Of a stretch of DNA of 64,000 nt, positions 3,828 through 51,531 are shown one piece after another. Position 1 is the first letter of the stretch. Each line of letters starts with the position of its first letter. Location of the stretch: the NCBI GenBank assembly GCA_012837385.1, contig DURH01000001.1, positions 65,349 to 129,348 on the forward strand, given 5' to 3'. The position numbers and the translations under genes are program-made. The notes beneath the pieces are model-generated. The model worked only from the letters and a program-made list of their open reading frames with translations. It had not been told where the DNA came from and ran no database searches. The stretch comes from Bacillota bacterium. Its GTDB lineage: Bacteria > Bacillota > Limnochordia > Darwinibacteriales > Darwinibacteriaceae.

Positions 3828-4038
3828 CGCAAAACCGGGAATGAACTGGTCCAGGCAGGGAAAAGTTTACTGGCGCCGAATGTTTTATTGTCATGCAGCT
3901 TTTGGAAATGGACAGACGGTGTGCGAAGGAGGTGGGCATAAGGAATAGCGATTTGGGCCTCAACTGCTGATTCTGTGCCCTGATCCCAAAGAGCCTTTCG
4001 CTGGGACAACTTCAAATACTGTGGAGGTGCAGCAGAGA

Positions 4039-4416
4039 GTGAAGAGAAATTTGCTGATACTTACTGCCATCGTTGTTTTGGCCGTTATGCTTGCTGGCTG
4101 TGAGTATCTCCCCTGGAATTTTGGCAAGATCAAGGTAACTTACGAATACGACAAAGAGATTTTCCGTACAGTCAGCAATCCCGCCTGGGCTAAGAAGGGC
4201 GATCTGGTGGTCACCGCCTTCCCACTCCAAGAGAAGCACGTTGGCAAGTACGGTCCTCTTGATTTCACCATTGAGGTCAAGGATATCAACAAGACCGACG
4301 TTCCTGCATCAGTAGGCGACGTAATGAACGGTGACGTGTTTACAGGCTTCCAAATCGAAGTGCCTGATGTTGGTCAAAAGGGTATCACAATTAGCATTAC
4401 GTTGAATAAGGGATAG
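4039..4416 (+). CDS. Small predicted lipoprotein of unknown function
   Basis: A 125-residue protein with a clear lipoprotein signal: positively charged start, hydrophobic core, and lipobox LAGC with the cysteine at residue 21. The mature part is about 105 residues, rich in beta-type sequence (KIKVTYEYDKE, FTIEVKDINK, ITISITLNKG), and ends in alternating hydrophobic residues. I do not recognise the family. The GTG at 4039 is chosen because GGAGGTG at 4022-4028 precedes it by about ten bases; an in-frame GTG at 4021 is upstream of that site. It stands alone between two terminators, so it is probably a single-gene unit anchored to the outer face of the membrane. Confidence 0.75.
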   Translation: MKRNLLILTAIVVLAVMLAGCEYLPWNFGKIKVTYEYDKEIFRTVSNPAWAKKGDLVVTAFPLQEKHVGKYGPLDFTIEVKDINKTDVPASVGDVMNGDVFTGFQIEVPDVGQKGITISITLNKG

Positions 4417-4435
4417 TAGGATACCCTTCAGAAAA

Positions 4436-4467
4436 ACAGAACCCCACAACGCTGTGGGGTTCTGTTA
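4436..4467 (+). terminator. Bidirectional intrinsic terminator
   Basis: ACAGAACCCCACA (4436-4448) pairs with TGTGGGGTTCTGT (4453-4465), 13 pairs around a four-base loop. T residues follow on the plus strand, and the minus strand reads TGTTTTTCTG. It separates the convergent lipoprotein gene and the NatB-like permease gene. Confidence 0.88.
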
Positions 4468-4481
4468 TTCTATTTACTTTT

Positions 4482-5684
4482 TTAGCGTCCGTTCTCCTTG
4501 TAGCGCAGCCACCTCATGATTTCCTTGGGTGTAGCATTCTTTCCGTACATAAGCATGCCCACTCTAAAGATTTTGGCTGCTAAGCGCATAGTGGCGAGGG
4601 CAGTTACCAGGAGCAGGGCAGCAGAGGTGAGCATCTGCCAGAGGGGTACTGCCGTAAGGCCGCTACGCATCATCATTATGGCGGAGCTGGTAAAGGGAAA
4701 GATGCTGGCAAAGACAGCTATGCTCCCGTCAGGATTGCTTACCACTGGCCCGATAAAGAGGAAGGCCAGCATAGGTAGCATAATCACCATACCTTGGGAG
4801 TTGCCGGCACTCTGCAGATCCTCCATGGTGGCTCCCAGGCCCACAAAGAGGGCGCTGAACAGCAGATAGCCTCCTAAGCCGAAAAACAGGATCACAGGCA
4901 GATTGGCAGCCTGGAGGGCCTCCACAAGGGAGAAATCCAGGAAGTAGAGGGCGATGGGCAGGCCCAGGGCCAACCAGAAGCCCAGCTGGATCAGACCCAG
5001 CAGGAAATGACCGATGATCTTGCCCTGCATTAGAGTACTCGGTGGGATGGAGGAGAGCACCACCTCCGCCATACGGTCTCTTTTCTCCTGAAGGGCGCTC
5101 TGCATGAGCATGGCGCCAGAAGAGAAGACCAGGAAGAAGATTAATAAGGTGAACACCATGGACACAGTAATATGCATGGCCTGAGGCTCCAATTCTTCTT
5201 CTAGAGCGATCTGCCTCACTTGGGCGGGGGCAGTAACGAAGGCCAACTGCTCGGGACTCACCTCTGCCAACGCTAGGCGTAGGTGCTGCAGGAGGGCAGT
5301 TAGACCCTGCCGCAGAGCACTGGTACCTTCGCTGTTGCGGTCATTGTAGATCAGATCGATTTGGCCGCTGTTCACGAAGTCCTCCGTGAGCGTGAAGAAA
5401 CCACTGGCTTTGGTATCCCTCACAAGATCAGGAAGATTCGCACCAGCCTCTTCTTCCACCAGCACTACTCTGGGGGGCAGCAGGTCCCTGAGGACATCCA
5501 AAGCCCCCAACTCGTCCACAACATAGTAGGTGGTTTCAGCTGGCTGATTCCAGCGCTCCAATAAGACGGGCACCACAATAAACAAGGCCATAATCAGAGG
5601 AGTAATCAGCAAGCCGATGATAAACTGCTTGTTGGTGAGGTTACGCATAATTTCCCAGCGGGCTATCTTCCAGGTGTTCCGCAT
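4482..5684 (-). CDS. ABC-2 type permease, NatB/YhaP-like exporter subunit
   Basis: A 400-residue membrane protein with one N-terminal membrane segment (FIIGLLITPLIMALFIVVPV), a large extracytoplasmic domain of about 150 residues, and five or so clustered C-terminal segments. This is the usual layout of ABC-2 permeases of the NatB/YhaP group (COG1668). The start at 5684 has AAGGAGGT about seven bases before it and lies inside the ATPase gene, giving a 44-base overlap. It pairs with the upstream ATPase to form an exporter. NatAB of Bacillus expels Na+, but related pairs export other compounds, so the substrate is not assigned. Confidence 0.85.
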   Translation of the reverse strand: MRNTWKIARWEIMRNLTNKQFIIGLLITPLIMALFIVVPVLLERWNQPAETTYYVVDELGALDVLRDLLPPRVVLVEEEAGANLPDLVRDTKASGFFTLTEDFVNSGQIDLIYNDRNSEGTSALRQGLTALLQHLRLALAEVSPEQLAFVTAPAQVRQIALEEELEPQAMHITVSMVFTLLIFFLVFSSGAMLMQSALQEKRDRMAEVVLSSIPPSTLMQGKIIGHFLLGLIQLGFWLALGLPIALYFLDFSLVEALQAANLPVILFFGLGGYLLFSALFVGLGATMEDLQSAGNSQGMVIMLPMLAFLFIGPVVSNPDGSIAVFASIFPFTSSAIMMMRSGLTAVPLWQMLTSAALLLVTALATMRLAAKIFRVGMLMYGKNATPKEIMRWLRYKENGR

Positions 5685-6594
5685 GCTCTACACCTCCTTG
5701 AGCTACTTGCACGAAAATGTCATGTAGGGATGGCCGGCTGATCACTAGCTCGTGAACGGGCAGGTCAGCAGGGAGGCTGTGCACAAACTGAACAGGCTGT
5801 ACTCCCTCACGGAGGATATAGCGATACCGGGTGGCGTCCAACTGCCGGCCGCTCTCCACAAGACTGGAATCGACCAGGGGTTTCTGACCGGTGGGAGTGA
5901 GCACATCTACTCTGAGGTTTCCGTACCGCTCCTTAATGGAGTGCAGATCACCCTGCACAACCTCTCTGCCCTTGTAAATGAGGAAGATCTCGTCGCAGAG
6001 TTCCTCCACAATATTCATCTGATGGCTGGAGAGGAGTACCGCTGCCCCGGCGTTGGCTAACGCTTTGATTTCCGCCTTAAACACATCTTGACTCACCGGA
6101 TCTAAGCCCGAAAAGGGTTCATCCAGCACGACGAACTTGGGTTCATGGAGTACCGCGGCAGTAAACTGCACCTTCTGTGCCATTCCCTTGGAAAGCTGTT
6201 CCACCTTTTTGTCGGCATAGCCCTCTAGGTCGAACTTGCGCAGCCACTGCAGTGCCCTCCTTTTTGCTTCTCCGCGGGGCACATCCTTTAGGCCCGCCAG
6301 GAAGAGCAGGATGTTCATCACCCTTGCTTCCTTGTACAGCCCCCTCTCTTCAGGCAGGTAACCGATTTCTGTTAGGGGTACCCCCTTGGTCTGGACACTG
6401 CCGTGCCTGAAAAATACTGCGCCCCTGTCAGGAGCGGTGATGCCCATGATCATCCGTAAAATGGTGGTTTTCCCCGCTCCATTGGGGCCGAGCAGCCCTA
6501 AGATCTTACCCTGAGAAGCATGAAACGAGATATTATCCACCACCCTGGCGGATCCGTAGGTTTTCGTAATCCCTTCCACATACAAACCGTCCAT
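5641..6594 (-). CDS. ABC transporter ATPase, NatA/YhaQ-like
   Basis: A 317-residue ATPase with Walker A GPNGAGKTT at residues 36-44, signature LSKGMAQKV and Walker B VVLDEPFSGLDP. A C-terminal region of about 90 residues follows the ATPase domain, as in NatA-type exporters. The ATG at 6594 is chosen because GGGAGGA stands about seven bases before it; an in-frame extension of 27 residues upstream has no such site and runs through the preceding terminator. It overlaps the permease gene by 44 bases, so the two subunits are surely co-translated. Confidence 0.88.
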   Translation of the reverse strand: MDGLYVEGITKTYGSARVVDNISFHASQGKILGLLGPNGAGKTTILRMIMGITAPDRGAVFFRHGSVQTKGVPLTEIGYLPEERGLYKEARVMNILLFLAGLKDVPRGEAKRRALQWLRKFDLEGYADKKVEQLSKGMAQKVQFTAAVLHEPKFVVLDEPFSGLDPVSQDVFKAEIKALANAGAAVLLSSHQMNIVEELCDEIFLIYKGREVVQGDLHSIKERYGNLRVDVLTPTGQKPLVDSSLVESGRQLDATRYRYILREGVQPVQFVHSLPADLPVHELVISRPSLHDIFVQVAQGGVEHAEHLEDSPLGNYA

Positions 6595-6726: not shown

Positions 6727-7296
6727 TTACGGCTGTTCAGTACTGCCGGCAACTACAAGGATCTGCTCCGCAGAAGCGCTGTACCACTGTCCGTGATCTT
6801 CGAACGTTCCCCGTACAACCAAACGGTAGGAACCTGGCTCTCCTGGCGCCTCCACCATGAGCATGCCGCTGCGCAGTTCCTCTCCCCTTAAGCCCCGCTC
6901 ATCTGCGAGGAGATCGCCTTCTTCATTCTGCTTCCAGATCTGCAGGAGGGGGGAGATTTGCTCCATGCTGGCTGCCGGGCTGACATCCACAAGAAGTTCA
7001 AACTCTTCACCTACTTGTACTGTCTTGGGATCTAGAGAGTCCGGCACAGCCAGAAAGGCCTTCATTTGGATGGGTTCTCCAACCTCAGGTACAGGGGGAG
7101 GGACGGGATTCCAAACAGTGTGCAGTAGGAAGGCCAAGGCCACTATAGCGGCGGCCGCGCTGCCCAGCCAGACGGGAACCCTCGCCCTCTTGGGCTTCTG
7201 TAGTTCGGTGGACACTTTCTCCCAGAGTGCGTCCGGGGAGCCCGGCCACTGGCTGTTTTCTCTCAGTGTCTTTCTGATCTGTTCATCTAAGTTCAT
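6727..7296 (-). CDS. Membrane-anchored anti-sigma factor for the adjacent ECF sigma
   Basis: A 189-residue protein with a cytoplasmic N-terminal part of about 45 residues, one membrane helix (VWLGSAAAAIVALAFLLHTV) and an external domain of about 115 residues of beta-rich sequence. The gene starts inside the 3' end of the sigma gene, which is the normal arrangement for ECF sigma/anti-sigma pairs. The ATG at 7296 is preferred because GGAGGT stands about seven bases upstream. The external domain (VPDSLDPKTVQVGEEFELLV...) looks like an immunoglobulin-like sensor domain. No zinc-binding HxxxCxxC motif is visible in the N-terminal part. The signal sensed is unknown. Confidence 0.78.
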   Translation of the reverse strand: MNLDEQIRKTLRENSQWPGSPDALWEKVSTELQKPKRARVPVWLGSAAAAIVALAFLLHTVWNPVPPPVPEVGEPIQMKAFLAVPDSLDPKTVQVGEEFELLVDVSPAASMEQISPLLQIWKQNEEGDLLADERGLRGEELRSGMLMVEAPGEPGSYRLVVRGTFEDHGQWYSASAEQILVVAGSTEQP

Positions 7297-7846
7297 CCCT
7301 GCCACCTCCTTCTAAGTTGGCCATGTCCCGACGGAGCCGCTGCCGTGCTGTGTAGAGCCTTGATTTCACAGTGGAGAGCGGAATCTGCAGTGCCTCGGCA
7401 ATCTCCGCTTCCTTCAGCTCAGAAACGTATTTGAGCAGTAAGGGCAGGCGGTGGTTCTCGTCCAGCGTGTTGATAGCTTGGAAGAGCTGCTTGAGTCCTT
7501 CCTTCTCCAGGGTGCTGCTCTCCGGGACATAAGCGCTGTGCCTGTTTTCCTCTTCTATTTCATAGGGCAGGTGCCCCCGATCTAAACGGCCCTTGGTTCT
7601 TTTAGCCTTGTTGATCACGATGCGCGTGAACCAGGGCTTAAAGGGCCGGTGATCCTGAAAGCTATGCAGTGAGCGGAAGGCTTGCACAAAAGCTTCTTGA
7701 ACCGCATCCTCAGCTGTGGCCCAGTTGCGGGTTACTAGGTAAGCCAGGCGGATGGCGCTGTCCAGATGCTGTCTAAAGATCTGCTCCAGGGCAGCTTCCT
7801 CGCCTTGCTTGGCCCGCTGTATCAGTTCTTGCTCTGTATAGTCCAC
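7283..7846 (-). CDS. ECF-type RNA polymerase sigma factor
   Basis: A 187-residue sigma-70 family protein with region 2 (AIRLAYLVTRNWATAEDAVQEAFVQAF, seen in parts) and region 4 (EAEIAEALQIPLSTVKSRLYTAR) and no region 3, which defines the ECF group. It starts at GTG 7846, five bases after GGGAGGA. The anti-sigma gene overlaps its end. An ECF-type promoter lies directly upstream at 7868-7894 and the same element precedes the SIMPL-domain gene at 13.4 kb, which suggests autoregulation and a small envelope-stress regulon. That regulon link is inferred from the shared promoter. Confidence 0.92.
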   Translation of the reverse strand: MDYTEQELIQRAKQGEEAALEQIFRQHLDSAIRLAYLVTRNWATAEDAVQEAFVQAFRSLHSFQDHRPFKPWFTRIVINKAKRTKGRLDRGHLPYEIEEENRHSAYVPESSTLEKEGLKQLFQAINTLDENHRLPLLLKYVSELKEAEIAEALQIPLSTVKSRLYTARQRLRRDMANLEGGGRDELR

Positions 7847-7867
7847 GGCAATCCTCCCTTCACTTGA

Positions 7868-7894
7868 TATACCCCTGATGTGAGGAAAAAGTTT
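7868..7894 (-). promoter_or_regulatory. ECF-type promoter of the sigma/anti-sigma operon
   Basis: On the minus strand AATAAACTTTTTCCTC carries a -35 core AAAC (7894-7891), and GGTATA (7873-7868) follows after a 17-base spacer. The AAAC/CGTATA-like layout is usual for ECF promoters. The same sequence and spacing recur at 13445-13471. Confidence 0.72.
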
Positions 7895-8058
7895 ATTGGT
7901 GCCCGCCTATTTGTTTGTGGAAAGTCCTTCCTCATGGGCCTTGAGGAAATAATTGACAAATTGCTCACAAAAGAGAGCGAATTGCAGGGTTTCCCAGGAC
8001 TCTGTCGAAGTCTATTTTGTATACGTTTTCAACCAATTGAATACCTTGCTCCGAGGGG

Positions 8059-8679
8059 GTGGCGGCTGTTTCTAGGCATGAACCCAAACTACCAGGTCTA
8101 GTAATACCAGAGTTCGAGCTGGAAGATCGCGTTATAACCGCACTAATGCATGTACTCTACGAAAAAAGCCCACGTGAAGAGGGACATTCCCGCCGAGTAA
8201 GCCAGCTGTGTTTTGCCATCGGCGCAGAACTTGGTATGGAGCACGATGACAGGATTGAGCTGGCCAAAGTTGGGCTGCTGCACGATATCGGCAAGATTTC
8301 CATCCCTAGTGAAATTCTCAATAAATCTCAACCGCTCCTGCCTTGGGAGTGGAAGGAGATCCATGGGCATCCCATCAACGGACATCGCTTTTTGAGTGCC
8401 GTGGTCGGCATGGCGGAGATTGCTGAGGCGACTTTAGCTCACCACGAACGCATGGATGGGACTGGCTATCCTTATGGACGCCGCGGTCAGCAGATTCCGT
8501 TCATGGCTAGAATCGTAGCGGTGGCCGATGCCTATGATGCTATGGTTAGTGCCCGCCCATATAGGCATGCCTATAGTCACAGCCAAGCCTTGCAGGAACT
8601 GCAGAGAGGCGCAGGTAAGCAGTTCGATGCGCAGGTCGTGAAAGCGTTTACCGGACTGGCATGCAGAGAAATCGCTTGA
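8059..8679 (+). CDS. HD-GYP domain protein
   Basis: A 206-residue protein that is almost only an HD-GYP domain. It has HDIGK (metal-binding His-Asp), a following GHP, AHHERMDGTGYP with the GYP signature, and VADAYDAM. HD-GYP domains with these residues usually hydrolyse c-di-GMP. There is no obvious sensor domain. The start is uncertain: the frame opens at 8041 and GTG 8059 is the first usable codon, but GAGGGG lies directly against it; ATG 8146 would remove 29 residues and has no ribosome binding site. A terminator follows. It may be a truncated or stand-alone phosphodiesterase. Confidence 0.85.
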   Translation: MAAVSRHEPKLPGLVIPEFELEDRVITALMHVLYEKSPREEGHSRRVSQLCFAIGAELGMEHDDRIELAKVGLLHDIGKISIPSEILNKSQPLLPWEWKEIHGHPINGHRFLSAVVGMAEIAEATLAHHERMDGTGYPYGRRGQQIPFMARIVAVADAYDAMVSARPYRHAYSHSQALQELQRGAGKQFDAQVVKAFTGLACREIA

Positions 8680-8717
8680 AAGCACCTTGCTTGGGTGTAA
8701 CCCAATCAGAATAATGG

Positions 8718-8746
8718 AAACGGCAGCCAAACGGCCGCCGTTTTTT
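8718..8746 (+). terminator. Intrinsic terminator after the HD-GYP gene
   Basis: AAACGGCAGCC pairs with GGCCGCCGTTT (one mismatch) around AAAC, followed by six T residues. The opposite strand has no T run, so it serves the plus-strand gene. Confidence 0.82.
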
Positions 8747-9224
8747 AGTAGCCCATTTCCTTCAGGATTCTCGCCAGGGTACTCAGTCTTTCGCCAATCA
8801 ACTCACCGTCCCGGGCCAGTGCATCCAGGAAGAGCTTGATATCTTCGTCAATCTGCTCATTTTCGGTGCACACTTCCACAGTCATGGCGTCGCCCTGCAA
8901 GCCGACCCTGTCAATAACGGGATTCTCAGGATCATAGAACTTTTCGAACCGATAGGCTCCGTCGAAATAGAGTTTGGCCCGGCAGACCAAAATAGCCAGA
9001 TCCAGCACCCTGTGCAGCGGCAGTTCCTCGGACTGGCGGGACCAGCGTTCACCTGTGTGGCGCCAGACCTTGGCTGAGATATCTACCCGGCCTCGATCAT
9101 TCCATTGAGCCAAGCCCAAAGACAAGCCTTTGGCATCGGAGTCGTAGGCACTCCTTCCGTCAATATTGCTGTAATCCTGGGCTACAACAACTGGTTTGTG
9201 CTTAAGCGTAGTTGGTATCTTCAT
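8745..9224 (-). CDS. Conserved hypothetical protein (possibly DUF6530)
   Basis: A 159-residue soluble protein with no signal peptide or membrane segment. It opens MKIPTTLKHKPVVVAQDYSN and contains the strongly conserved-looking stretch KGLSLGLAQWNDRG followed by DISAKVWRHTGERWSRQSEE. From memory this resembles a family of about 160 residues in Firmicutes (I believe DUF6530), but this is not certain and no activity is known to me. GAGGAGGATATAA precedes the ATG. It is a single gene with its own strong promoter and operator-like repeats, so it is probably switched by a dedicated regulator that is not next to it. Confidence 0.7.
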   Translation of the reverse strand: MKIPTTLKHKPVVVAQDYSNIDGRSAYDSDAKGLSLGLAQWNDRGRVDISAKVWRHTGERWSRQSEELPLHRVLDLAILVCRAKLYFDGAYRFEKFYDPENPVIDRVGLQGDAMTVEVCTENEQIDEDIKLFLDALARDGELIGERLSTLARILKEMGY

Positions 9225-9255
9225 TTATATCCTCCTCTAGACTTCGTAGTCTTCC

Positions 9256-9292
9256 AAATCAGTGATGTAGTAAATCAGTAAATCACTAATTT
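9256..9292 (-). promoter_or_regulatory. Operator-like inverted repeat downstream of the -10
   Basis: AAATCAGTGAT (9256-9266) and ATCACTAATTT (9282-9292) form an inverted repeat matching at 10 of 11 positions. The 15-base centre contains the direct repeat AGTAAATC AGTAAATC. It lies at the start of transcription of the minus-strand gene, a good place for a repressor. Confidence 0.6.
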
Positions 9293-9293
9293 C

Positions 9294-9322
9294 AGCATAA
9301 CCTGCCGTTGGATTCTTGTCAA
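9294..9322 (-). promoter_or_regulatory. Sigma-A promoter of the conserved hypothetical gene
   Basis: Minus strand: TTGACA (9322-9317), 17-base spacer, TATGCT (9299-9294). The -35 is perfect. Confidence 0.8.
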
Positions 9323-9420
9323 GCCCTCAAGTGCTGCTCCCTAGACCATTCGTTCTAGGCAGGAAGTGATGCCGAGTTAGAGAAGATATGTAGAAAATGA
9401 TTAGGGGAGTGATAAAAAAG

Positions 9421-9762
9421 ATGAAACAAATCGCAATCGTCAGCTTCCAAGGTGAGATGCCTTGCTTTGTTCATGCTCTCCTCAATACTTGGAACTACCA
9501 TGTTAAGGGGTATGAAGTGGCGCTGATCGTGGAAGGGGCTTCCACCGCGCGTCTGGCTGATATCGCCAAGTCACCCCAAGCGGGGCTGTGGGAGAAGATC
9601 AGAGGGCAGGGACTGATCAAGTCTGTCTGCAAAGCCTGCGCCGCCCAGATGGGAACGCTTCAGGAAGCTGAAGCCCAGGGTTTGCCCATCGATGCAGCCC
9701 TGTCAGGCCATTCTGATTTGGAGGCCTTCACCGCCCAAGGATTCGAGATCATTCTGTTCTAA
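9421..9762 (+). CDS. DsrE-like cytoplasmic protein
   Basis: A 113-residue protein of the DsrE/DsrF-like fold. It opens KQIAIVSFQGEMPCFVHALLN and has a conserved GLIKSVCKACAAQMGT segment with two cysteines, then ends GHSDLEAFTAQGFEIILF. Proteins of this subgroup are small, cytoplasmic and of unclear function; the cysteine could act in sulfur or redox transfer. The ATG at 9421 is taken as start, after AGGGGAG at 9403-9409; GTG 9409 or ATG 9397 are alternatives. It is twelve bases from the RocB-like gene and probably co-transcribed with it. Confidence 0.75.
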   Translation: MKQIAIVSFQGEMPCFVHALLNTWNYHVKGYEVALIVEGASTARLADIAKSPQAGLWEKIRGQGLIKSVCKACAAQMGTLQEAEAQGLPIDAALSGHSDLEAFTAQGFEIILF

Positions 9763-9774
9763 AGGGGGAAATCC

Positions 9775-11430
9775 ATGTACCTGCCTTGCTTCGATGATGT
9801 CAAAAAACTCACCGAGGAACTGGTCAAGATTCCCAGCATAGTGAAGACCAGCGGCGAAGCAGACTGCGCCCGTAGAATCCATCAGTTTTACCGCAGCCTT
9901 CCCTATTTTCAGCGGAATCCTGAATACCTGTGGCTGCAGCGCACAGAGGATGACGAGATCGAGAGGTACAATGTGCTGGCTATGGTCAAGGGGACGAAAG
10001 GAGGTTCCAGGCGCACAATCATCCTCATGGGCCACTTAGACACGGTGGGAGTGGATGATTTCGGGAACATAAAGGAGTACGCCTTCGAACCAGAGCGGCT
10101 GCCCCAACATTTGCGCCAGATGGACCTAGGGGAAGATGTCCAGAAAGACTTGGACTCTGGAGAGTATATGTTTGGGCGGGGAGCCTTGGATATGAAATCG
10201 GGTATAGCTGGGCATATGTGGCTCATGCGCTACTTCTCAGAACACCCCGAAGAGCTGGACGGTAACATCATTGCCATTGCCGAGTGTGATGAGGAAGACA
10301 ACTCCCATGGCATCATCTCTGCTTTAAAGGCCCTAAAACAGTGGAAGGCTGAGCATGATTTGGAGTTTGCTGCCGCCATCAACGCGGATTATTCTACACC
10401 CTATCACGATCTGGATCCCAACCGCTATGTCTACTTCGGCACCATTGGCAAGCTCCTGCCCACATTTTATGTGGTGGGGAAGGAGACCCATGTGGGGCAG
10501 GCCTTCGGAGGGCTGAACCCCAATCTGCTGGTGGCTGAACTCACTCGGCTTATTGAGCTGAATCCCGATCTCTGCGATGAAGCCCAGGGTGAAGTGACCA
10601 TTCCTCCTGCCACACTGAAACAGGGGGATTTTAAGGATACCTATACTGTGCAGACGCCCATTGCGGCATACGCTTATTATAATGTTTTCACCCACAGTAT
10701 GAGCCCTAGGGAGATCATGCTGAGAATGAAGGAGAAGGCGGTTGAGGCCTTCGATAATGTGGTTCGGTATACCAATGAGGCCTACCAGGCATTCTGCCAG
10801 CGCAGCGGGCATGTGTATACCCAGCTGCCCTGGAAAACCAGGGTGTACACTTGGGAGGAGTTCTACGCTGATTTGGCGCAGGCTCATGGCGACAAGTTTA
10901 TCCATTATCTGCAGGAATTCAGTCTGGATCTGCACAGGAAGAACCCTGCCATGGACCTCAGGGATTTCAATGTGAGGATTGTGGAGGAAGCCTGGAAGTG
11001 GGCAAAGGATCAGAGCCCGACCATTATTGTGTTCAACTCATCCACCTTCTTTGCTAGAATAGAGATGACCGGCCGGGACGAAGCGGAAAGAAAGCTGCTG
11101 GACAGCGTGGAGCAGGCGGTGGCGGAGGTGCAGCGGTATTCGGAGCGGCCCATAGTCACCAAGATGTTCTACCCCTATATCTCCGATGCCAGCTTTATGG
11201 CCCTCGGTGATCGAGAGGAAGAGCTTGACGCTTTGGAGAACAACACGCCTGCCTGGGGCATTAAGTACACTCATCCCATCGGGGATATTGCTGCCATCAA
11301 TGTGCCGGTAGTAAACATAGGGACCTACGGCAAAGACGGCCATAAGCTCACCGAACGGGTACACATGCGGCACACTTTCGAGATTGTGCCTAACATTACA
11401 TTCAACACGATCAAGAAGCTGCTGGGCTAA
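9775..11430 (+). CDS. RocB-like M20 family metallohydrolase
   Basis: A 551-residue M20/M25/M40 peptidase-fold enzyme. The metal ligands are visible in LMGHLDTVG, GRGALDMKSG and AECDEEDNSHG. Length and the large C-terminal part match RocB, an amidohydrolase linked to arginine use in Bacillus, more closely than the 380-residue amidohydrolases. AAAGGGGG precedes the ATG. It lies between a DsrE-like gene and an MFS transporter and is probably an operon with both. It likely hydrolyses a small amide or peptide in the cytoplasm; the true substrate is unknown and RocB itself is poorly characterised. Confidence 0.88.
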   Translation: MYLPCFDDVKKLTEELVKIPSIVKTSGEADCARRIHQFYRSLPYFQRNPEYLWLQRTEDDEIERYNVLAMVKGTKGGSRRTIILMGHLDTVGVDDFGNIKEYAFEPERLPQHLRQMDLGEDVQKDLDSGEYMFGRGALDMKSGIAGHMWLMRYFSEHPEELDGNIIAIAECDEEDNSHGIISALKALKQWKAEHDLEFAAAINADYSTPYHDLDPNRYVYFGTIGKLLPTFYVVGKETHVGQAFGGLNPNLLVAELTRLIELNPDLCDEAQGEVTIPPATLKQGDFKDTYTVQTPIAAYAYYNVFTHSMSPREIMLRMKEKAVEAFDNVVRYTNEAYQAFCQRSGHVYTQLPWKTRVYTWEEFYADLAQAHGDKFIHYLQEFSLDLHRKNPAMDLRDFNVRIVEEAWKWAKDQSPTIIVFNSSTFFARIEMTGRDEAERKLLDSVEQAVAEVQRYSERPIVTKMFYPYISDASFMALGDREEELDALENNTPAWGIKYTHPIGDIAAINVPVVNIGTYGKDGHKLTERVHMRHTFEIVPNITFNTIKKLLG

Positions 11431-11453
11431 AGCAGTGGGAAAAGGGGTTTGTT

Positions 11454-12641
11454 GTGACGGCTCTTCTCATCATCATCTATATCGCCTTTATCAGCCTGGG
11501 GCTGCCCGACTCTGTGCTGGGCAGTGCCTGGCCTGTCATCAGGCTTGATTTATCCGCGCCAGTGAGTTTAGTAGGATACGTGGCAATGACTATCAGCGCT
11601 GGCACAGTGGTTTCCAGTCTGCTCAGCAATAGGATGGTGGCACGTTTTGGCACTGCCAAGGTGACCACCGTTAGTGTGTTAATGACTGCCGTGGGCCTTG
11701 TAGGGTACTCCTTGGCAGGCCAAGCCGCCTGGCTTTTTCTCTGGGCTATACCCCTGGGGTTAGGGGCAGGAAGTGTGGATGCAGCTCTCAACAACTTCGT
11801 AGCCCTGCATTACAAGTCCATGCATATGAACTGGCTGCACTGCTTCTGGGGAGTGGGGGCGACCGCCGGCCCCATCATTATGTCTTTCTTCCTTGCCAAT
11901 GGCCGGGGCTGGCGCACGGGGTACGGGGTGATTGCTGGTCTGCAGTTCGCTTTGGTCTTGGTGCTGTTTGCATCCCTTCGGCTGTGGCAGGGCAGAGATC
12001 AGGCAGCCGGCTCTAAGGATGGCGGGAGTCCAGTTGTGTCCAATCGTGAGGCGCTGGGTGTGCCCCTTGTGAAGCTGGCACTGGTGTCCTTTGCCTGCTT
12101 TAGCATCACTGAAGCAACTACTGGGCTGTGGAGCAGCAGCTACCTGGTTGGGGTACACGGTATGGCACCCGCGGCAGCAGCCCGCTGGACCGCCTCATTC
12201 TATGGGGGCATTACCGTGGGGCGCCTGCTGTCTGGATTCCTATCTATGAAACTGAAGAACGCAGCCCTGATCCGCGGAGGGCAGCTGGTCTGCGTGGCAG
12301 GGGCAGTTCTGCTCATGCTGCCGGTCCCTGTTCAACTTTCTGCCTGCGGGATTGTTCTGATCGGTTTGGGGACAGCCCCTATCTTTCCAGCAATGCTCCA
12401 CGAAACGCCCAATCGCTTTGGAGCAGCCGCCTCTGGCGCCATTATGGGTCTGCAGATGGCCGTGGCTTATGCTGGGGGGACCCTAGGCTCTCCGCTCTTT
12501 GGGTTCTTGGCCTCCGTCACTTCGCTGAACCTGCTGCCCTATTATGTACTGGCAGCCGTGGTGACGATGCTGGCTGCCTCGGAGCTGCTCAATGGACGCC
12601 TAGAGGGCCGCAGACCAGTATGGATGACAGGCAAAAACTAA
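11454..12641 (+). CDS. Major facilitator superfamily transporter
   Basis: A 395-residue membrane protein with about twelve hydrophobic segments. The cytoplasmic loop SNRMVARFGTAKVTT between the second and third segments is the MFS motif region. It starts at GTG 11454 behind AAAGGGG, 23 bases after the RocB-like gene, and ends in an intrinsic terminator. The set resembles sugar/proton MFS members with the conserved GLGAGSVDAALNNF stretch (FucP/YfkF-like group). It may move the substrate or product of the neighbouring hydrolase; that is inferred from position only. Confidence 0.85.
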   Translation: MTALLIIIYIAFISLGLPDSVLGSAWPVIRLDLSAPVSLVGYVAMTISAGTVVSSLLSNRMVARFGTAKVTTVSVLMTAVGLVGYSLAGQAAWLFLWAIPLGLGAGSVDAALNNFVALHYKSMHMNWLHCFWGVGATAGPIIMSFFLANGRGWRTGYGVIAGLQFALVLVLFASLRLWQGRDQAAGSKDGGSPVVSNREALGVPLVKLALVSFACFSITEATTGLWSSSYLVGVHGMAPAAAARWTASFYGGITVGRLLSGFLSMKLKNAALIRGGQLVCVAGAVLLMLPVPVQLSACGIVLIGLGTAPIFPAMLHETPNRFGAAASGAIMGLQMAVAYAGGTLGSPLFGFLASVTSLNLLPYYVLAAVVTMLAASELLNGRLEGRRPVWMTGKN

Positions 12642-12667
12642 AGGAGAGCTGAACGCTCTCCTTTTTT
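12641..12667 (+). terminator. Bidirectional intrinsic terminator
   Basis: AAGGAGAGC and GCTCTCCTT form a nine-pair stem with a five-base loop, then TTTTTTG. The minus strand also runs into a T-rich stretch, so it probably ends both the MFS gene and the convergent SIMPL gene. Confidence 0.88.
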
Positions 12668-12681
12668 GTCTTATGCACGTT

Positions 12682-13401
12682 TTAGAACGTGAATTCCATT
12701 TGCACAGTGGCGCTGACCTCTACATCGCCGGCGGTAATGCTGGTTCCTGCTGAAGCCTCAGCCCTGTAAGCTACAGCGCTCACCAGGGGAGCATATGAGC
12801 TGTAGCTTTCGCTCATGTTTACCAGGGCGCCGAGGGTCAAGCCTGCAGCTTCTGCCATGGCCTCGGCTTTGGCCATTCCCTGGCGAACAGCATTCTTCAG
12901 GGCTTCTAGCTGCATGGCCTGCTTGTCCTCCACATCAAAGGTGATGCCCTGGACTTGGTTAGCCCCCGCCTTTACTGCTCGGTCCACGATCTCTCCGATG
13001 CTGTCCAGATCTCTAGTGGTGATGTTGATGCGGTTTGTCACCCAGTACGTGGTAACTGTTTCTTCTTTGTCTGTGCCGCGGTTGATCACCTGAGTGGAAC
13101 CGTAAATGTTGTAGCCGCTGGTGGCCAGTTCTTTTTCGGTCAGTCCCAGTTCCTCTAAGGCGGCCAGCACCTGTGCCATGAGGTTGGCGTTTTCTTGGGC
13201 AGCCTTGTCTGCTGAGAGATCTTGAGTCTCAACTCCTAAGGTGATGTAGGCGATATCGGGGGTGGCTGTAACTACCGCCGTACCAGTGACCTGGATGCTC
13301 GCCGGCTGCGAGTTGGCCAGAGCGGTGTGCGGCAGCAGGGCTCCCACAAGAAGCACCAGCAAGAGTACGGAGGCCATTCTTGGCAATAGGTATTTACGCA
13401 T
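12682..13401 (-). CDS. SIMPL-domain (DUF541) secreted or periplasm-side protein
   Basis: A 239-residue protein with an N-terminal signal peptide (RKYLLPRMASVLLLVLLVGA...ALA) and one SIMPL/DUF541 domain (SIQVTGTAVVTATPDIAYITLGVETQ ... VEVSATVQMEFTF, seen in parts). Family members are exported and have been linked to oxidative stress and to signalling partners; the biochemical role is unclear. The ATG at 13401 is chosen because GGAAG stands six bases before it. The ECF-type promoter upstream (13445-13471) is nearly identical to that of the ECF sigma operon at 7.9 kb, which makes this gene a likely envelope-stress target. Confidence 0.87.
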   Translation of the reverse strand: MRKYLLPRMASVLLLVLLVGALLPHTALANSQPASIQVTGTAVVTATPDIAYITLGVETQDLSADKAAQENANLMAQVLAALEELGLTEKELATSGYNIYGSTQVINRGTDKEETVTTYWVTNRINITTRDLDSIGEIVDRAVKAGANQVQGITFDVEDKQAMQLEALKNAVRQGMAKAEAMAEAAGLTLGALVNMSESYSSYAPLVSAVAYRAEASAGTSITAGDVEVSATVQMEFTF

Positions 13402-13444
13402 GTCCATCTTCCTTTCTTGGCAAGTTAAACTTGCTTTCACTTCA

Positions 13445-13471
13445 TATATCCTTCGAGGGAGGAAAAAGTTT
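13445..13471 (-). promoter_or_regulatory. ECF-type promoter of the SIMPL-domain gene
   Basis: Minus strand: AATAAACTTTTTCCTC with the -35 core AAAC at 13471-13468, 17-base spacer, then GATATA (13450-13445). It matches the sigma-operon promoter at 7868-7894 in sequence and spacing, including a downstream AAGTGAA. Confidence 0.72.
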
Positions 13472-13590
13472 ATTGATCCCAGAAGAATTTTTCGCCGCCA
13501 CAGGGGTGGAAGATAGCCAGAGGACAAGGCCGAAAAAACCGTTGTAAGCGGGAAAATATACTGATAAACTAGACTGAAGGGGTGAGGCCC

Positions 13591-49717: not shown

Positions 49718-50040
49718 GCGTGCTCTGCTCTAAGAGGTGTCTGAAATAAACCTGGTAACGGAGCGAAGCTGTAAAATAGGAACTAGTCTTATAAATGTGT
49801 GAAAATAGTAATTGCCGACTTAGAACGGCAATCAAGTGAAATTAAGGAGGATTTCACAATCAGGCATAGAAATATGCAAGTGGAAACATTCATAACTATA
49901 CAGCTGTAATTTTCTAGCTGGCGTTATGAATGTTTTCGGTGAAGAGGCGCTTTTTTCGCGATCTGCAAAGGGACAGATGGGCAGTAAGGTATCTAGAACT
50001 GCAGCTGTATGGGTCGAATCTTTGGATGGGAGTGGTGAGT
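49718..50040. other. Leader region of the ribose-type ABC operon with three hairpins
   Basis: About 320 bases without a supported gene. A TATAAA at 49790 could be a -10 but no good -35 is seen. Three successive inverted repeats follow: TTGCCG/CGGCAA (49812-49831); GTGAAAT/ATTTCAC (49836-49857), which encloses TAAGGAGG with no start codon after it; and the 13-base AAACATTCATAAC/GTTATGAATGTTT (49884-49935). Known riboswitch classes were not recognised. Confidence 0.55.
49884..49935 (+). repeat. Thirteen-base perfect inverted repeat in the sugar operon leader
   Basis: AAACATTCATAAC (49884-49896) and GTTATGAATGTTT (49923-49935) with a 26-base centre that itself has CAGCT/AGCTG. It could be an RNA stem or a paired operator; one arm shares GGAAACATTCAT with the LacI-gene upstream region. 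Confidence 0.7.
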
Positions 50041-51531
50041 TTGGATCAAGGCTATGTTGTACAGATGCAAGGAATCACCAAAGAGTTCCCCGGTGTTGTA
50101 GCGCTGAACGGTGTTGATTTCAACTTGAAGAGGGGAGAAGTCCATGCCTTGGTGGGTGAAAACGGGGCAGGTAAGTCCACTCTGATCAAAATTCTCTCTG
50201 GAGCTTACCAAATGGATCGCGGCGAAATCCGCATCAATGGGCAAAAGGTGAACATCTCCAGCCCCAGGCACTCTCAGGAACTTGGCATCAGCGTGATCTA
50301 TCAGGAGTTCAACCTGGTTCCCTATCTTTCCGTGGCAGAAAACATCTTCCTAGGCCGAGAGTCCATGAGCAACGGCGTCTTCATCAATAACAAGGAGAAC
50401 AGGGCCAAGGCCCAGGAGCTCTTGGACCGCTTGGAACTAGAGATCAGTATCGACGACACTGTTGCCGATTTGGGAGTTGCTCAGCAGCAGATGGTAGAGG
50501 TGGCCAAGGCCCTTTCCATGCAGGCCAGTATTATCGTAATGGATGAGCCCACCTCAGCCCTGGGCAACCGCGAAATTGAGCAGCTGTTTCGGACCATCGA
50601 AAAAATGAAATCCGAAGGGATTTCCATTATATATATCTCTCATCGGTTGGAGGAGTTGTGGCAGATTGCAGACCGGGTCACGGTCCTCAGGGATGGGCAA
50701 TTCATTACCACCTCAGATATGGAGACCATGGACAAGGATCAGCTGATCAAGTACATGGTGGGAAGGGATCTCACTGAACAGTTCCCGGAACGGAATGTAT
50801 CGTTGGGAGAAGAGATTCTGAGAGTCGAGAACCTGAGCAAAAAAGGGGTTCTGGAGAACATCTCCTTCAACCTCAGGAAGGGCGAAGTAGTGGGCTTTGC
50901 CGGACTGGTTGGCTCTGGCCGCACTGAGCTGATGCGCTGCCTTTTCGGGGCAGATCGCTTCGAACAAGGAAAGATCTATCTCGAGGGCAGGGAAATCGAG
51001 ATCAAGTCACCGCGGGATGCCATTGGCCATGGCATAGGCTTTATCACTGAAGACCGTCAGCGGCAGGGTTTGATGCTGGTAAGGCCTGTTAAGGAGAACA
51101 TCACCGTCACTGCCCTAGACAGGGTAATCAGCAACCTCTTGATCGACCACAGCGAAGAAAGGCGCATCGCCGAGGACTTAGTTGACAAGCTGCGGATTAG
51201 GACTCCTGGTTTAGAACAGGAGGTAAGATACCTAAGCGGCGGAAACCAGCAGAAGGTAGTTATCTCCAAATGGTTGTTGGAAAAAGCCAAAATCCTCATT
51301 TTTGACGAGCCTACGCGGGGAATCGATGTGGGAGCTAAGAAAGAGGTGTACAGCCTCATCAACGAACTAGTGGGCCAGGGGGTGGGCGTTATTATGGTAT
51401 CTTCTGAGCTCCCAGAGATCTTGGGGATGAGCGACAGGATCTATGTGATGAGCGAAGGGAGGATCACTGGTGAGTTAGGATCACAAGAAGCTACCCAGGA
51501 AAAAATCCTGCAATATGCCACAGAGGAGTGA
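50041..51531 (+). CDS. Ribose-type sugar ABC transporter, double ATPase (RbsA-like)
   Basis: A 496-residue duplicated ATPase. The first half has Walker A VGENGAGKST, signature-region LGVAQQQMVEVAKAL and MDEPTSALGNREIEQLF. The second half has a degenerate Walker A (GLVGSGRTEL), signature LSGGNQQKVVISKWL and DEPTRGIDVGAK. This is the RbsA/MglA pattern. TTG 50041 is taken as start because GGGAG lies eight bases upstream and the length then equals the family's; GTG 50035 or ATG 50026 are possible. First gene of a three-gene ATPase-permease-binding-protein operon. Confidence 0.9.
   Translation: MDQGYVVQMQGITKEFPGVVALNGVDFNLKRGEVHALVGENGAGKSTLIKILSGAYQMDRGEIRINGQKVNISSPRHSQELGISVIYQEFNLVPYLSVAENIFLGRESMSNGVFINNKENRAKAQELLDRLELEISIDDTVADLGVAQQQMVEVAKALSMQASIIVMDEPTSALGNREIEQLFRTIEKMKSEGISIIYISHRLEELWQIADRVTVLRDGQFITTSDMETMDKDQLIKYMVGRDLTEQFPERNVSLGEEILRVENLSKKGVLENISFNLRKGEVVGFAGLVGSGRTELMRCLFGADRFEQGKIYLEGREIEIKSPRDAIGHGIGFITEDRQRQGLMLVRPVKENITVTALDRVISNLLIDHSEERRIAEDLVDKLRIRTPGLEQEVRYLSGGNQQKVVISKWLLEKAKILIFDEPTRGIDVGAKKEVYSLINELVGQGVGVIMVSSELPEILGMSDRIYVMSEGRITGELGSQEATQEKILQYATEE

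Follow-up and report, generated by a model that had tools for sequence, protein, structure and literature searches.

Why should the operon of an alternative sigma factor and a separate gene for a SIMPL (DUF541) protein carry the same upstream element? The question is raised by a stretch of 64,000 nucleotides from a Bacillota bacterium (contig DURH01000001.1, positions 65,349 to 129,348), called the window below, in which a gene for an extracytoplasmic function (ECF) sigma factor and a SIMPL gene lie on the minus strand. SIMPL proteins are widespread and, to our knowledge, have no agreed role. A preliminary description of this DNA predicted that the sigma factor is autoregulated and that its small regulon includes the SIMPL protein. 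The analyses reported here point, with a probability that we put at about 0.87, to an ECF switch for envelope stress that would be autoregulated and would have the SIMPL protein as its dedicated, exported effector.

One promoter type before two genes

Both copies of the element are on the minus strand. They had been described as AAAC, 17 further bases, a GGTATA or GATATA hexamer and a following AAGTGAA, and all of these parts are present at both sites, with AAAC to TATA spanning 7894-7868 and 13471-13445. That description stands as far as it goes; the conserved element is longer, and reads AAACTTTT-N12-GG(A/G)TATATnnAGTGAA (7894-7859 and 13471-13436). The predicted autoregulatory promoter of the sigma operon (7859..7894, minus strand) is made up of AAACTTTT as the -35 region, 12 variable bases and GGGTATATCAAGTGAA, from the -10 to the start region, and the predicted sigma-dependent promoter of the SIMPL gene (13436..13471, minus strand) of AAACTTTT, 12 variable bases and GGATATATGAAGTGAA. 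Two 39-base stretches around the sites are identical at 32 positions with the same spacing, and the 16-mer AATAAACTTTTTCCTC is found unchanged in both.

These two sites are the only places in the whole genome of the window (2.13 Mb in 71 contigs) where AAACTTTTTCCTC occurs, and the two-box motif, searched as AAACTTTTN{10,15}GNTATA, was likewise found there and nowhere else. A looser 35-base pattern allowing up to three mismatches returned the same two places; at this tolerance the pattern scans detected no third target in the genome. We also scanned the window with a matrix derived from sigma promoters only, taken from 20 other members of the family; no SIMPL site and no sequence of the window's own genome went into it. 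The SIMPL promoter ranked first (43.4 bits) and the sigma promoter second (40.3 bits), so that the sigma promoters of other species predict the SIMPL promoter of the window; the third site scored 16.0 bits, and the maximum over 200 first-order Markov sequences of window length was 21.3 bits. This weaker site, at position 50662, lies inside an open reading frame (49930-51531) and was rejected.

The element and the sigma factor across the class

The comparison covered 72 genomes of the class, mostly drafts with a completeness of 75 to 100%, and left weaker sites uncounted. A sigma ortholog is encoded by 27 of them, namely all 22 genomes of the window's family and, among the 14 remaining genomes of the order, five that belong to a single additional family (the second family); weaker matches among these 14 genomes are other ECF factors. 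The motif AAACTTTT-N12-GGATATATAAAGTGAA precedes every sigma gene of the window's family (22/22, with 19 to 24 of 24 positions matched) and every standalone SIMPL gene of that family (15/15, 21 to 24 matched). In the second family it precedes the five sigma genes (22 or 23 of 24) and the one standalone SIMPL gene (21). SIMPL genes located inside the sigma operon give only background scores (12 to 16). One weaker relative of the sigma factor in the class (genome G039) has neither SIMPL nor the motif near its gene.

The 35-base pattern, with up to three mismatches, matched 42 places in the 72 genomes, which are 26 sigma and 16 SIMPL promoters, and all 42 belong to exactly the 27 sigma-bearing genomes. 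No match was obtained in the 45 class genomes that have no sigma ortholog, and the reversed control gave none in the 72. With the motif before 27/27 sigma orthologs and 16/16 standalone SIMPL genes, both parts of the preliminary prediction, autoregulation and a small regulon that includes SIMPL, are strongly supported by comparison.

Eight genomes (G010-G013 and G028-G031) carry the strict motif once, before an operon of sigma, anti-sigma and SIMPL genes that is followed by a gene on the opposite strand. This predicted three-gene operon, with no other target in these genomes, argues that SIMPL is the conserved output of the switch and, as predicted from the genomes compared, its only constant one. 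A further step would be to suppose that sigma, anti-sigma and SIMPL form the whole regulon, and that SIMPL is an extracytoplasmic effector closing the loop through the outer domain of the anti-sigma factor; we regard this fuller version as tentative and, on balance, rather unlikely.

Arrangement and history of the SIMPL genes

SIMPL genes directly follow the sigma and anti-sigma genes in 19 of the 27 sigma-bearing genomes (14/22 in the window's family, 5/5 in the second), and separate SIMPL genes with their own promoter are present in 16 (15/22 and 1/5, respectively), so that every one of the 27 has at least one copy. Within the window's family, seven genomes have the operon copy only, seven have both copies and eight the separate copy only, these eight being the six genomes of the window's genus and two others; in the second family, four genomes have the operon copy only and one has both. 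Usually, the separate gene adjoins a divergent gene for an AI-2E family permease, and this is also the case in G032, from the second family. Genome G031 contains a second sigma/anti-sigma/SIMPL operon (locus L229, G031:C15), cut by the end of its contig.

In a tree of the 36 sigma-linked SIMPL proteins (omitting genome G033 and four distant proteins, and with the window's protein trimmed to its likely start), the 16 separate copies fall on one side of a single branch (support 92/81); in 500 label shuffles, clustering as strong as this never arose. A first tree that contained distant outgroups required three label changes. The pattern, with moderate branch support, is as expected from one duplication accompanied by a copy of the promoter: SIMPL would once have been in the sigma operon and would have been duplicated to a second, promoter-bearing site, the direction being the one that we infer, and the window's genus would have kept the second copy only. 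Separate copies may instead have spread by transfer between the two families.

More distant SIMPL genes (at most 41% identical), including a second SIMPL gene of the window's own genome, were inspected in 17 loci of a longer list, several of them cut by contig ends; no ECF sigma gene, as detected by blastp to the window's sigma factor, was found beside them.

Products of the sigma operon and of the SIMPL gene

The sigma gene (7283..7846, minus strand) encodes a protein of 187 amino acids. Pfam detects Sigma70_r2 (9.6e-15, residues 23-87) and Sigma70_r4_2 (1.2e-12, residues 120-171), and a search of the PDB with the family profile matches SigW (5wuq, 5.4e-28) over residues 1-177. The protein is thus predicted to consist of regions 2 and 4 only, joined by a short linker, as in ECF factors. 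The end of its gene is overlapped by that of a putative anti-sigma factor (6727..7305, minus strand), proposed on its position and membrane helix and conserved in the family. Its short N-terminus, with two predicted helices and a conserved W.GS...LW stretch, is followed by one membrane helix and a beta-rich outer domain; a single-sequence model of low confidence (predicted local distance difference test, pLDDT, of 46) places helices at residues 6-17, 24-35 and 49-65. The sigma gene and the next gene are separated by -40 to +8 bases in 26 of 27 loci, G007, whose locus is cut off by the contig end, not being among these; in G001 the rule on distance and length identified no such gene.

Downstream, on the same strand and with no terminator-like site listed between it and the anti-sigma gene, a gene for an ATP-binding cassette (ABC) transporter ATP-binding protein (5641..6594, minus strand; Pfam ABC_tran, 3.9e-28) is probably the third of the operon. 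The gene for an ABC-2 type permease (4482..5684, minus strand; ABC2_membrane_3, 6.4e-41) is probably the last, and a terminator-like palindrome lies beyond it (4435-4466).

The SIMPL gene (12682..13407, minus strand) encodes a protein of 241 amino acids starting at 13407 or 13401; the open reading frame start at 13527 is a mechanical one that runs through the promoter. The SIMPL family (PF04402) covers the mature protein with 2.9e-52 and 178.3 bits, against a curated cut-off of 25.2, and the PDB match is BP26 (4hvz, 2.7e-25). The N-terminus is hydrophobic and ends in ALA-N, which reads, from the sequence only, as a putative export signal; the protein is accordingly predicted to be exported. 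A terminator-like palindrome (12640..12664) separates the gene from a convergent transporter gene, so that SIMPL is probably transcribed alone.

A mechanism can be proposed from these predictions. A single-pass anti-sigma factor, encoded by the overlapping gene, would tether the ECF factor to the membrane, and an envelope signal would free it, both the release and the anti-sigma activity being presumed here. The freed factor would read one stringent promoter type and drive its own operon (sigma and anti-sigma genes and, in the window's genus, also the ABC exporter) together with the separate SIMPL gene. SIMPL would then act on the outer side of the membrane, in a protective or feedback role.

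Which of these products is the working output can be questioned. The regulation could be real while the ABC exporter, as a drug or lantibiotic-type efflux system, does the work and SIMPL only assists. The ABC pair indeed adjoins the sigma gene in 13/22 genomes of the family, downstream in the same direction in 10 and divergent in 3. However, it is absent nearby in 8 of the 22 (and unseen in one) and in 5/5 genomes of the second family, whereas SIMPL is coupled to the sigma factor in all 27. We rejected the exporter as a constant partner of the sigma factor, and consider it improbable as the main output. In L085, L112 and L086 (G001, G002 and G009), where the ABC pair and the sigma gene point away from each other, the short interval that separates them contains the sigma promoter or lies close to it.

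Form and origin of the promoter

Across a profile of 36 sites, AAC and the T that follows it are invariant, which is the -35 AAC of the ECF type; the profile omits the sigma site of G005, whose best score is obtained with an 11-base gap. The -10 block is GGAT in 32 sites, GGGT in 3 and GAAT in 1, and the CGT that is usual in ECF promoters (PMC8103513) does not occur. Conserved bases continue as far as AGTGAA, where the transcript would start at ECF spacing. The lack of CGT does not exclude membership of the ECF group, since a review describes its defining features as later restricted to regions 2 and 4 only (PMC8103513).

Homologs from other classes indicate where such a promoter may come from. 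Among eight distant sigma homologs, four (G097, G292, G160 and G428; 33-37% identical) have the motif before their own gene, as AAACTTTT-N12 followed by a GGTATATA..AGTGA-like block (18 to 21 of 24 positions). Their sigma gene is followed by one for a membrane protein whose outer domain differs, and SIMPL is absent there. Because these homologs carry it before their own gene, the element seems to be an autoregulatory promoter shared by a broader ECF group; the tie between SIMPL and sigma was seen, among the homologs examined, only in the window's order. In 80 genome-contig loci, the motif reached at least 18 of 24 only in L113 (the contig of G007), and no SIMPL was found in the loci scanned, those where a short blastp missed the sigma gene not being counted.

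When the phylum was scanned with up to three mismatches, the pattern matched 32 places and its reversed control 12, and 23 of the matched loci were read; matches with three mismatches are therefore close to what chance would give, and we attach no weight to them. In L266 (G214) and L268 (G352), sites resembling AAACTTTTT..TATATAGTG precede other, more distant ECF sigma genes, so that the promoter type may extend still more widely in the phylum.

The shared element might not be a sigma-dependent promoter at all, but the operator of some other DNA-binding regulator or a leader RNA element controlling both genes. Such an element would account for the length of the right-hand block (16 bases) and for its strong conservation into the presumed start of the transcript, beyond what most ECF promoters need. 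It fits poorly with two blocks at ECF spacing around a variable 12-base spacer, with no clear dyad, and with the distribution given above, in which the element is present in every genome that has the sigma factor and in none of the 45 that lack it; the same element also precedes distant sigma homologs that have different neighbours. We therefore hold this alternative to be very unlikely. A sigma-28 (flagellar) promoter, whose consensus is TAAA-N15-GCCGATAA, can practically be dismissed: TAAA and GATA do stand at the right spacing and phylum pattern matches in G077 and G189 lie upstream of flagellar-type genes, but the GCC of the -10 is absent (G 3, C 0 and C 0 in 36 sites) and the only two sites in the genome precede the sigma and SIMPL genes.

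Several observations weigh against an autoregulated ECF switch with SIMPL as its effector. A -10 of GGAT or GGGT in place of CGT, together with the conserved start region, is not the textbook ECF form, and one sigma promoter, that of G016, has more than three mismatches and was missed by the pattern. The ABC pair is unevenly associated with the sigma gene, as counted above. The putative anti-sigma factor matched no Pfam family and shows no anti-sigma domain of a known type; the structural model obtained for it is poor. Of the distant sigma homologs, 4/8 have no clear copy of the motif (a variant in G299, none in G341, G407 and G074). Finally, G033 encodes a SIMPL protein of the sigma-linked subfamily (46% identical) and has neither a sigma match nor the motif, which indicates that SIMPL can exist without the switch; it seems that in this genome the switch was lost or remains unassembled while SIMPL was kept. 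The G033 gene (L228, G033:C190) adjoins what reads as a glycoside-hydrolase-like gene.

Comparison with known systems

ECF factors with a membrane anti-sigma factor are released by envelope signals. About 55% of ECF factors are thought to be autoregulated (PMC8103513), and an autoregulated ECF switch is in itself of a known kind; the novelty here lies in the form of its promoter and in SIMPL as a constant output. The window's factor resembles those of the SigW/RpoE kind in its size, in having regions 2 and 4 only, in the AAC of the -35, in the predicted promoter of matching type upstream of the sigma gene itself and in the overlapping downstream gene for a single-pass membrane protein. It differs in GG(A/G)TATA instead of CGT, in the block that continues to AGTGAA, in the SIMPL target and in a putative anti-sigma factor without known domain.

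Tt-RpoE1 of Thermoanaerobacter tengcongensis, an autoregulated ECF factor with TCTATA at the -10, offers a precedent for a TATA-like element at this position; its anti-sigma factor Tt-TolB binds it through an N-terminus of about 39 residues ahead of the membrane helix (PMC3397946), a layout similar to the short N-terminus seen here. That system differs in its -35 (TGTTAC), a spacing of 18 and a TolB-type outer domain, and the portion of the report that we consulted mentions no SIMPL protein (PMC3397946). In CnrY-type anti-sigma factors, two short helices likewise precede one membrane helix (PMC7406223); this compares ways of working only, and the anti-sigma model is too weak for a comparison of folds.

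Among SIMPL proteins, Brucella BP26 forms a 16-mer barrel (PMC6884894). The window's protein shares with BP26 (4HVZ) and YggE the PF04402 domain over the mature protein, and its likeness to BP26 is a sequence match to 4HVZ alone. The Escherichia coli gene yggE is under sigma-S and is listed with oxidative stress (PMC4447067); control by an alternative sigma factor would thus be common to both, although sigma-S is not an ECF factor. We found no report that ties BP26 or YggE to an ECF factor, and, among the open-licence PMC papers searched, none that ties SIMPL/DUF541 to a sigma factor, an ECF sigma factor or an anti-sigma factor.

In the present data, one SIMPL subfamily goes with one sigma factor wherever that factor was found, linked to it through an operon or a copied promoter, and this holds across two bacterial families known mostly from draft assemblies. 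SIMPL is thereby placed downstream of a probable envelope-stress switch, where its role becomes testable, and an ECF group gains a precise promoter. The separate gene also offers a clear case of a gene outside an operon keeping its regulator through a promoter copy. Limnochordia have an outer membrane (PMC11456536), and if this is the class of the host, SIMPL would be periplasmic.

Neighbouring genes

A small lipoprotein-like gene (4021-4416) lies after the sigma operon, and at the same place G004 has two and G005 three diverged tandem copies. On the other side, a gene for an HD-domain protein (8059-8679) is oriented opposite to the sigma gene and has its start roughly 200 bases from it; it is kept beside the sigma gene in 6/6 genomes of the window's genus and in 7/8 of a second genus.

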